The notes beneath the pieces are model-generated. The model was not told the DNA's origin and made no database searches. It was given only the letters and a program-made list of their open reading frames with translations. The position numbers and the translations under genes were made by a program. Below, piece after piece: positions 28,852 to 30,418 of a stretch of 64,000 bases of DNA; position 1 is the stretch's first letter; each line of letters starts with the position of its first letter. The DNA is from Streptomyces sp. NBC_01298 (lineage in GTDB: Bacteria > Actinomycetota > Actinomycetes > Streptomycetales > Streptomycetaceae), in contig NZ_CP108414.1 in assembly GCF_035978755.1 (NCBI RefSeq), positions 2,046,001-2,110,000 on the forward strand, read 5' to 3'.

Positions 28852-29968
28852 TCAGGCGCGGCCCGTGCGCTTCGCGGAATAGTTCGCGCGGCCCTCCGCC
28901 GAGCGGAGCCTCCAGTCGCGCCTGATCTCCGCCCGGAGCCGCGCGTCCGTCTTCGCGACGATCCGCTGGTTCTCCCGCAGCAGCTTGCGGTAGCTCTCCA
29001 GCCGACGCTCGGGCAGCTCTCCGGAGTCAACGGCGGCCCGCACCGCGCACCCCGGCTCCGCCTCGTGCGCGCAGTCCTGGAAGCGGCACCGTTCCGCGTA
29101 CTCCTCGATCTCCGAGAAGACCTGGCCCACGCCCGCCTCCGCGTCGTAGAGCCCGACGCCCCGCAGTCCGGGGGTGTCGATGAGCACGCCGCCGCCCGGC
29201 AGTACGAGCAGGTTGCGCGTCGTGGTGGTGTGGCGGCCCTTGCCGTCGACGTCGCGGGCGGCCTGGACCTCCATCACCTCTTCCCCGAGCAGGGTGTTGG
29301 CCAGCGTGGACTTGCCCGCGCCGGAGATGCCGAGGAGCACGCTCGTACCGCCCCCGACGACCGCGGCGAGCACGTCCGTGCCCTCCCCGGTCATCGAGGA
29401 GACCGTGAGGACCGTGACCCCGGGGGGCCGTGGCCTCCACGTCCTCGACGAGGTGCGAGAGGGTGACCGGGTCCGGGACCAGATCCGCCTTGGTCAGGAC
29501 CACGAGGGGCTGCGCCCCCGATTCCCAGGCGAGCGCGAGGAACCGCTCGATGCGGCCGAGGTCCAGTTCGACCGCCAGGGACACCGCGATGATCGCGTGG
29601 TCGACGTTCGCGGCGAGGATCTGCCCCTCGGACCGCTGGGAGGAGGTGGACCGCACGAAGGCGGTCCGGCGCGGCAGGTACGTCTTCACGTACCGCGGAG
29701 TGCCGTGGGCCTCGACGACCGCCCAGTCGCCGGTGCAGATGACCCGGAGCGGGTCGTGCGGGGTGACGAAGGCGGTGTCGGCGCGGACGACGCCGTCCGC
29801 CGTCATGACATCGCACTGGCCGCGGTCGACCCGTACGACCCGGCCGGGCACGAGGCCCTGGTCGGCGTGGGGGGCGAACTCGGCGGCCCACGCGTCGTCC
29901 CAGCCGTAGGGGGCGAGGACGTGCTGAGCATCAGTGGTGGAAGAGGTGTCGAGCGAAGCGTGGAACAA
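28852..29968 (-). pseudogene. rsgA: Ribosome-associated GTPase RsgA, interrupted by a +1 frameshift
   Basis: The 5' part (29968 to about 29428) encodes the OB-fold and G4 region: APYGWDDAWAAEFAPHADQ, PGRVVRVDRGQCDVMTADGVVRA, and VLTKADLV. The 3' part in another frame encodes G1 GISGAGKSTLANTLLG, G3 DTPGLRGVG and the zinc site CRFQDCAHEAEPGC. The frames join at a run of six G's on the plus strand (29422-29427; C's in the gene). One base fewer restores a continuous family-like sequence (...EATAPGVTVLTVSSMTGEG...). RsgA is a circularly permuted GTPase that tests late 30S maturation. Start TTG 29968 is chosen because GAAGGG lies six bases upstream and no other start fits. A sequencing error at the homopolymer is as likely as a real mutation. 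Confidence 0.8.
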
Positions 29969-29993
29969 GGGGAACCCTTCGAAGGGCGGCCCC
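29969..29993 (-). promoter_or_regulatory. Hairpin sequestering the rsgA ribosome binding site
   Basis: On the minus strand GGGG-CCG-CCCT-TCGA-AGGG-TT-CCCC folds into two stacked stems that abut the TTG start and bury the GAAGGG Shine-Dalgarno. Together with the upstream 24-codon reading frame this is the layout of a translational attenuator. Folding is read by eye and not computed. Confidence 0.5.
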
Positions 29994-30017
29994 GGCGGCG
30001 CGGAAGATGTGTGGGTG

Positions 30018-30092
30018 TCAGCCGGAGACCACAGGGGTGGAAACGATGATGAACTCCTGAATGCGGGCAGCGCCCGTCACCATGACCGTCAT
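30018..30092 (-). CDS. 24-codon reading frame upstream of rsgA; possible leader peptide
   Basis: ATG 30092, stop 30018-30020. An ideal AGGAGGT lies upstream (30103-30109), about 10 bases from the ATG or 7 from a TTG directly before it. The peptide begins MTVMVTGAARIQEF and ends in IIVSTPVVSG. It is rich in Val, Ile and Thr with a short hydrophobic core, so FIIVST resembles the stalling segment IFVIST of the ErmC leader. It ends 49 bases before the rsgA start, with the RBS hairpin between them. A -10-like TATGGT with CTGGTG 18 bases upstream (30178-30207, minus strand) could transcribe both. Real translation is inferred only from RBS and layout. Confidence 0.5.
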   Translation of the reverse strand: MTVMVTGAARIQEFIIVSTPVVSG

Positions 30093-30418
30093 CAATGTCC
30101 TCACCTCCTGCTTCTTCTCAACGAACCGACACCGTTCCCTCGAGCACGACGCACGGCCGAACCCCGGAACGATGAAAACCATAGCCCCGCCCCGGGCACG
30201 GCACCAGCGATTAAACGCGGGGCCGACGTCAGACCGCGGGTCGTACGGCACCCTGGGCGGGGACCCCGGGCTCGCCGGGCCCACGCCGCACCGCCTCCGA
30301 CCACGGCCCCGCGATGCCCGCTCCGGAGATCAGGACCCGTTGGCCGTCATGGGATCAGCCTGAACTTACCGTCGGTCAGCGGCGAGGAGAAAACCTGTCG
30401 CCAAGTGGGCCAAGGGAC

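Follow-up and report, generated by a model that had tools for sequence, protein, structure and literature searches.

A conserved upstream reading frame and competing RNA helices suggest translational attenuation of a second rsgA gene in Streptomyces

The region preceding the second rsgA gene (rsgA2) of Streptomyces sp. NBC_01298 is probably a translational attenuator that couples rsgA2 to the efficiency with which a short upstream open reading frame (uORF) is translated, the effect on expression being a prediction. The DNA analysed, hereafter the window, is a stretch of 64,000 nucleotides (positions 2,046,001 to 2,110,000 of contig NZ_CP108414.1), and coordinates are counted from its first letter. 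Comparison of related sequences brings out the uORF, the constraint on its reading frame, an RNA helix (2:3) that shows compensation across families, and the promoter pattern.

The target gene and its leader lie on the minus strand. Two rsgA copies above the Pfam cut-off are carried by the genome, one of them in two pieces, and it is the second copy that lies in the window. Its N-terminal part (29425..29968, minus strand; PF03193 positions 2-78) and its C-terminal part, which is in a different frame (28852..29394, minus strand; PF03193 positions 93-173), both exceed the cut-off for the RsgA_GTPase domain (PF03193), in agreement with the first-pass annotation of the target as an RsgA-type GTPase. 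The frame is split in the window by a single frame change near 29425 (29420-29430, minus strand), within a run of six C, which is missing from all six relatives that were set beside it. Among the matches listed, the other best rsgA2 matches have longer open frames without stops; the rsgA2 copy of one other genome (G348) contains an internal stop. Either an error in the assembly or recent loss would explain the frame change in the window, on which the first-pass annotation is silent. Matches to the N-terminal part at E 1e-18 or better are present in 237 of 246 genomes of the genus, that of the window included.

The housekeeping rsgA of the same genome begins 8 bases 3′ of aroA, and no leader was seen there. 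In S. coelicolor, the copy that adjoins aroA is SCO5211. Given the two RsgA copies and the position of the other one beside aroA, rsgA2 would be the orthologue of SCO6149. Both SCO6149 and SCO5211 are given among the WblC-activated genes and their paralogues (PMC7157823), and the order in which they are listed there suggests that SCO6149 is the WblC-activated member of the pair. In the open-access library searched, SCO6149 was found in that paper alone.

A promoter of the WblC/WhiB7 type precedes the leader. By consensus score, it consists of an AT-rich box, TTTAAT (30210..30215, minus strand), a −35 element, TGGTGC (30201..30206, minus strand), and a −10 element, TATGGT (30178..30183, minus strand), with a 17-nt spacer; the 7-8 bp rule given in PMC7157823 would place the start of the transcript at about 30171. 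Scored against the consensus of Lee and others, GAAAWY-N3-TKGMNN-N16-19-TANNNT (13 points maximum; PMC7157823), 149 of the 167 leaders that had all landmarks (the window being counted twice, as the window and as L089) reached 10 points or more, compared with 5 of 835 shuffles. The promoter in the window scores 9 of 13, and a score of 9 or more was reached by 17 of the 835 shuffles. A general sigma-70 promoter was not found here by consensus scan. The pattern thus indicates that rsgA2 lies behind a WblC/WhiB7-type promoter and makes it a predicted member of the WblC regulon. A link between this leader and antibiotic stress had been proposed in the first-pass annotation, and the promoter type lends it support; the signal is presumably antibiotics or another translation stress, to which the output of rsgA2 would respond.

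The uORF comprises 24 codons (MTVMVTGAARIQEFIIVSTPVVSG; 30018..30092, minus strand), with its ATG at 30092-30090 and its TGA at 30020-30018. It is preceded by an AGGAGGT Shine-Dalgarno sequence (30103..30109, minus strand), helix strand 1 occupying 30102-30108, and 49 bases separate its stop codon from the TTG start codon of rsgA2 (29966..29968, minus strand). A TTG is found at the matching place in most aligned leaders. Close to the end of the uORF, strand 2a (CACCCCT; 30033..30039, minus strand) is the complement of the uORF Shine-Dalgarno sequence, with one mismatch in the window, and it is followed by strand 2b (GTGGTCTCCGGC; 30021..30032, minus strand), which coincides with the final four sense codons. 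Strand 3 (GCCGGGGCCGCCC; 29984..29996, minus strand) can pair with 2b or, via its own CCC, with the rsgA2 ribosome site. In the latter case it contributes to a hairpin (CCCTTCGAAGGG; 29975..29986, minus strand) that covers the rsgA2 Shine-Dalgarno sequence, GAAGGG (strand 4; 29975-29980, minus strand), and that has outer arms GGGG/CCCC (29993-29990 and 29972-29969, minus strand). The frame with its ribosome site, the distance to rsgA and the hairpin over GAAGGG had all been described in the first-pass annotation and were all located where it had placed them. The overall folding energy of the leader in the window is ordinary (z −0.73); the evidence for the leader is therefore its conservation and not its stability. 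A search of 29850-30400 against Rfam gave no family match up to E 5, and a consensus scan of the leader gave no transcription terminator.

By a strict rule that demanded 20-28 codons and a strong Shine-Dalgarno sequence, the uORF was detected at 123 of 129 orthologous loci of the genus but in only 6 of 1290 shuffled regions, counts that do not represent independent events, as several of the loci come from the same or close species. The 129 loci belong to the closest relatives (the best 80 of 572 relatives were kept); some species occur twice and one locus (L042) is labelled Kitasatospora. Five of the six loci that the rule missed (L023, L100, L125, L131 and L133) nevertheless show a uORF peptide, and the genome of the sixth (L134, genome G107) has a leader according to the RNA model described below. 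The uORFs of L023 and L100 start with TTG instead of ATG, and an in-frame TTG stands immediately 5′ of the ATG in the window; ATG was kept in all 77 uORFs of a thinned set for which either ATG or GTG had been allowed. When the start and stop landmarks were searched irrespective of frame, the distance from ATG to TGA was a multiple of three at every one of the 122 loci with both landmarks (129 examined, 7 missed) and took four lengths. The spacer from the uORF stop to rsgA is spread over the three frames (57/39/26). Since the ATG-TGA distances are always in frame, the reading frame appears to have been kept, from which we infer that the uORF is translated.

More distant loci also retain the uORF. 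An automatic uORF call was obtained at 51 of 85 such loci and not at the other 34; five of the 51 (L174, L207, L239, L240 and L241) were removed on visual inspection ahead of scoring, which left 46 loci. These keep a uORF and, when taken together, the pairing as well, whereas their peptides are largely unrelated. Overall, 18 of 193 leader entries are without a scored uORF. An alternative build was observed in several other genera, where the uORF is longer and crosses the rsgA start in another frame (L150, L153, L154, L157, L158, L160, L162, L165, L206, L212, L214, L226 and L233). L255 was assigned a uORF across the rsgA start by reading alone, its stop not being computed.

The sequence of the peptide itself bears on two alternative functions for the uORF. 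In the leader of ErmC, an arrest segment resembling FIIVST halts the ribosome, and the transcript can form helices 1:2, 2:3 and 3:4, the last of which contains the ribosome site of the target. The first-pass annotation had noted FIIVST in the peptide of the window and raised the possibility of a ribosome-stalling leader; on an ErmC-type reading, a macrolide would stall the ribosome at one codon and open rsgA2. FIIVST is indeed present in the uORF of the window and at three other loci, and FIIV in 9 of the 123 uORFs, the window's among them; FIIVST is missing, however, from 119 of the 123. In the reading frame of the uORF, pN/pS was 1.20, compared with 0.64 and 0.71 in the other two frames (77 uORFs, 52 neighbour pairs, genus). 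Many codons have a fixed third position (GTG at 72/77, GTC at 75/77) and vary at the first or second, and insertions and deletions fall mostly in the middle of the peptide. These observations, together with the largely unrelated peptides of the distant loci, make a drug-specific arrest peptide very unlikely. Because only 4 of 123 uORFs carry FIIVST and the residues show no sign of selection, we regard its resemblance to the ErmC leader as having arisen by chance in a single lineage. The uORF could alternatively encode a functional small protein conserved for its peptide, as might be argued from the strong Shine-Dalgarno sequence at 123 of 129 loci and from the glycine with which 122 of 123 peptides end. 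That final glycine, however, falls in a helix strand, there are 98 distinct peptides among the 123 uORFs, and the pN/pS value, in a region where the RNA also limits synonymous change, gives no sign of selection on residues; we consider a functional small protein extremely improbable. The sequences thus point to constraint on the RNA and on the frame. A weaker constraint on the peptide may still exist, because the RNA holds down synonymous change too and the pN/pS value leaves room for it.

Conservation of the helices was examined in an alignment (A1) of 55 thinned Streptomycetaceae leaders, from which 17 divergent loci were left out by hand. Helix 1:2 joins the uORF Shine-Dalgarno sequence to codons near the uORF end, and helix 2:3 joins the final four sense codons to the segment 5′ of the rsgA ribosome site; in the window, helix 2:3 has 11 pairs, two of them wobbles, plus one bulge. 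For the two helices together, 96.5% of 978 cells were paired, compared with 43-54% when the strands were slid, and for helix 2:3 alone the value was 98.1%. Column shuffles of the same leaders were 96.2% paired on average, and 6 of 500 reached the observed 96.5%. Changes on both sides were seen at two pairs, a number reached by 366 of 500 shuffles, the pair types were no better than in shuffles (482/500), and most changes led to wobble pairs. Within Streptomycetaceae, the evidence from alignment for the helices is therefore one of consistency more than of covariation. For hairpin 3:4, 88.9% of cells were paired and the column shuffles were not beaten (241/500). An extra GC hairpin, seemingly covarying, was seen between the uORF stop and strand 3 in many leaders (A1 columns ~125-172); it is absent or minimal in the window and lacking in some leaders, and it was not counted, as MAFFT left it unaligned.

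Compensation becomes apparent across families. In distant genera the sequence differs and the complement is kept, for example CGGGTCCCG/CGGGACCCG in L180 and CCGGGTGTCC/GGGCACCCGG in L219. When the strands of helix 2:3 were swapped between genera, own partners scored 20.4 and swapped partners 16.1, and none of 5000 swaps equalled the observed value (46 loci, 25 genera); outside Streptomycetaceae the values were 19.8 and 16.0, again with 0/5000 (24 loci, 16 genera). This contiguous-helix test was the second statistic tried and used shorter segments, and it included some loci in which the helices had first been noticed on visual inspection. A looser test based on the duplex energy of long segments gave a weak result for helix 2:3 (96/5000; 519/5000 outside the family), and an earlier duplex-energy version was discarded, its similarity clusters having lumped the 46 loci into four. 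Helices 1:2 and 3:4 gave z values of 1.7 and 1.8 in the swap test (2.7 and 1.4 outside the family), which is only suggestive. Shuffle tests of single helices at individual loci have too little power in such GC-rich sequence. Of the two helices that would have to be mutually exclusive in an ErmC-type leader, helix 2:3 is strongly supported and hairpin 3:4 more weakly; in the folds they overlap by two bases in Streptomyces and by six in L219. The rsgA ribosome site can also pair with a CCCTT 3′ of it.

To predict the consequence of these alternatives, each leader was folded with a ribosome parked at the uORF end or at about codon 11, and the energy required to open the rsgA ribosome site was compared. 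With the uORF end covered, the site was harder to open by a median of 1.20 kcal/mol in the 115 loci that remained of the 167 leaders after near-identical ones had been removed, and by 2.9 kcal/mol in the window. The difference fell to 0.07 kcal/mol when strand 2b was shuffled in the 115 loci; 46% of these loci beat all 12 of their own 2b shuffles, and in the window 1 of the 12 shuffles did equally well. In the 46 distant loci the difference was 1.20 kcal/mol, compared with 0.00 for shuffled sequences. The difference had the opposite sign, and exceeded 0.5 kcal/mol, at 8 of the 46 distant loci and, with the ribosome at the start versus the stop, for 15% of the 115 loci. The predicted folding difference is modest. 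Folds with no ribosome and with an early stall had nearly equal opening energies, and the leader would therefore read a general loss of uORF translation.

These predictions suggest the following sequence of events. The WblC/WhiB7-type promoter would make the transcript. During normal translation, ribosomes would reach the uORF stop and cover strand 2b, leaving strand 3 free to form hairpin 3:4 with the rsgA ribosome site, so that rsgA2 would be poorly translated. If ribosomes were to stall early in the uORF, or did not load onto it, 2b would pair with strand 3, and helix 2:3 would eat into the 3:4 hairpin so that the ribosome site opens more easily. What would matter in the uORF is its frame, its strong Shine-Dalgarno sequence and the position of its stop, and its amino acids would matter little. 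One could also envision the opposite polarity, in which helix 2:3 blocks loading of the 30S subunit by the rsgA site and translation of the uORF opens it by coupling; helix 2:3 does end just a few bases 5′ of the rsgA Shine-Dalgarno sequence. We think that this is unlikely, as covering 2b makes the site harder to open in the predicted folds, and the variants with overlapping uORFs are expected to share the sign of control proposed here and so to point away from the reversed scheme. The direction in which attenuation by uORF translation would operate is thus a prediction from folding.

A covariance model of the leader found one strong place in the genome of the window (E 1.8e-26; the next was at 3.1) and, with a limit of E 1, gave a match in 30 of 31 genomes from the genus; the exception, G017, is also the only one of those 31 without a match to rsgA2. 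The sensitivity of the model is limited: at E 0.001 it matched 40 of the 61 family genomes, and a leader in the window's own genome (L290) was missed. Of ten further places that were examined, seven are 5′ of a gene for a methyltransferase-GNAT fusion (six of these genes encode 414-449 residues and one 264; domains checked in three), two are 5′ of rsgA (L255 and L259), and one weak match (L258) is neither. L259 has a divergent rsgA, preceded by a uORF, directly 5′ of the methyltransferase-GNAT gene, so that the two targets are adjacent. With the fusion protein as query, matches at E 1e-60 were obtained in 87 of 242 genomes, some of them partial, and the loci looked at were L290, L250-L254, L257 and L260-L289; L291 had no match to the methyltransferase. 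L290 is the locus in the window's own genome (C1:1371500-1373700, leader at C1:1372390). A uORF was present at 34 of 38 methyltransferase-GNAT loci (30 of 34 distinct places). In 22 aligned leaders of the 28 retained, four of which were trimmed at the end and the omitted ones having uncertain or longer frames, 92.2% of the cells of helix 2:3 were paired; this percentage and the covariation score were reached by 0 of 500 shuffles, and the counts of changed pairs were not unusual. The 28 leaders were what remained of 39 rows after 7 repeats or other genes and 4 without a uORF call had been left out, and their difference in opening energy was 2.06 kcal/mol, compared with 0.37 kcal/mol for shuffled sequences.

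None of the 38 methyltransferase-GNAT loci showed a WblC-type promoter. Because the same leader precedes a gene that lacks this promoter, it gives the impression of an independent module. This result also bears on the possibility that rsgA2 is regulated only at transcription, through WblC, and that the uORF and the helix form a passive 5′ leader that serves, for example, mRNA stability. Such a view would draw on the frequency of the WblC-type promoter among the rsgA leaders and on the listing of SCO6149 in PMC7157823. It does not account, however, for a helix 2:3 and a reading frame that are conserved in their own right, or for the occurrence of the leader without the promoter, and we regard it as improbable. 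Translational attenuation by way of the uORF is the reading that we retain.

How does this proposed attenuator compare with known systems? The first-pass annotation had likened the locus to the ErmC plan, and the part of that comparison that holds is architectural: both have a leader frame with its own ribosome site and a plan of alternative helices 1:2, 2:3 and 3:4, in which the target site would lie within 3:4. It does not extend to a conserved arrest motif, which the rsgA2 leader lacks; the target, moreover, is not an rRNA methylase, and strand 1 is the uORF's own Shine-Dalgarno sequence. Likewise, the expectation that orthologous loci would conserve the leader was borne out for the uORF and the hairpin but not for FIIVST. 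A uORF is reported upstream of wblC/whiB7 in actinomycetes whose translation represses and whose disturbed translation induces, in response to antibiotic stress (PMC11550727). The logic and the bacterial group are those of the rsgA2 leader, and WblC is also the regulator of the promoter type of rsgA2; the wblC uORF, as described there, differs in acting on transcription via a Rho-independent terminator, of which none was found in the rsgA2 leader, where the pairing instead reaches the ribosome site.

In the toiL-topAI system of E. coli, the position in the uORF at which ribosomes stall is proposed to vary with the drug (PMC12121999). As is proposed for the leader described here, the toiL uORF controls translation at the ribosome site of the downstream gene. 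In toiL, however, repression comes from a hairpin between the uORF itself and the ribosome site, which stalling breaks, whereas the repressive hairpin of rsgA2 is local and the uORF end would act as its competitor, with an effect that is predicted by folding; toiL differs further, judging from the same text, in its target gene, in the bacteria concerned and in its coupling to Rho. The ARE-ABCF leaders are5sc and tiaA are also uORF leaders of Streptomyces; they answer to antibiotics and, according to PMC12421871, combine very short uORFs with terminator/anti-terminator structures and resistance targets. Our search of an open-access library, by titles and the starts of abstracts, found no leader of rsgA, and where "RsgA" occurred together with "leader peptide" the latter term stood in reference lists only.

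A broader reading, which we put forward tentatively and hold to be somewhat less than an even chance, is that these leaders form an undescribed, actinomycete-wide family that senses translation, in which the uORF serves to position ribosomes and not as an arrest peptide, and which controls rsgA2 and, with no WblC promoter, the methyltransferase-acetyltransferase gene. Since the strong Shine-Dalgarno sequence of the uORF itself forms strand 1, such a leader may sense how many initiation-competent 30S subunits are available, and a factor for 30S maturation would then receive feedback on what it produces. In the papers compared, the targets of similar uORF leaders are resistance genes, wblC/whiB7 itself or a toxin-antitoxin system. 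The rsgA2 leader instead precedes a spare GTPase of 30S assembly, and it is kept across actinomycete genera with little sign of selection on its peptide. This suggests that translation stress is answered by adjusting ribosome assembly, in a second, translational layer beneath WblC control. The leader also offers a route to other genes that are wired alike, and one unrelated gene family has already been found in this way.
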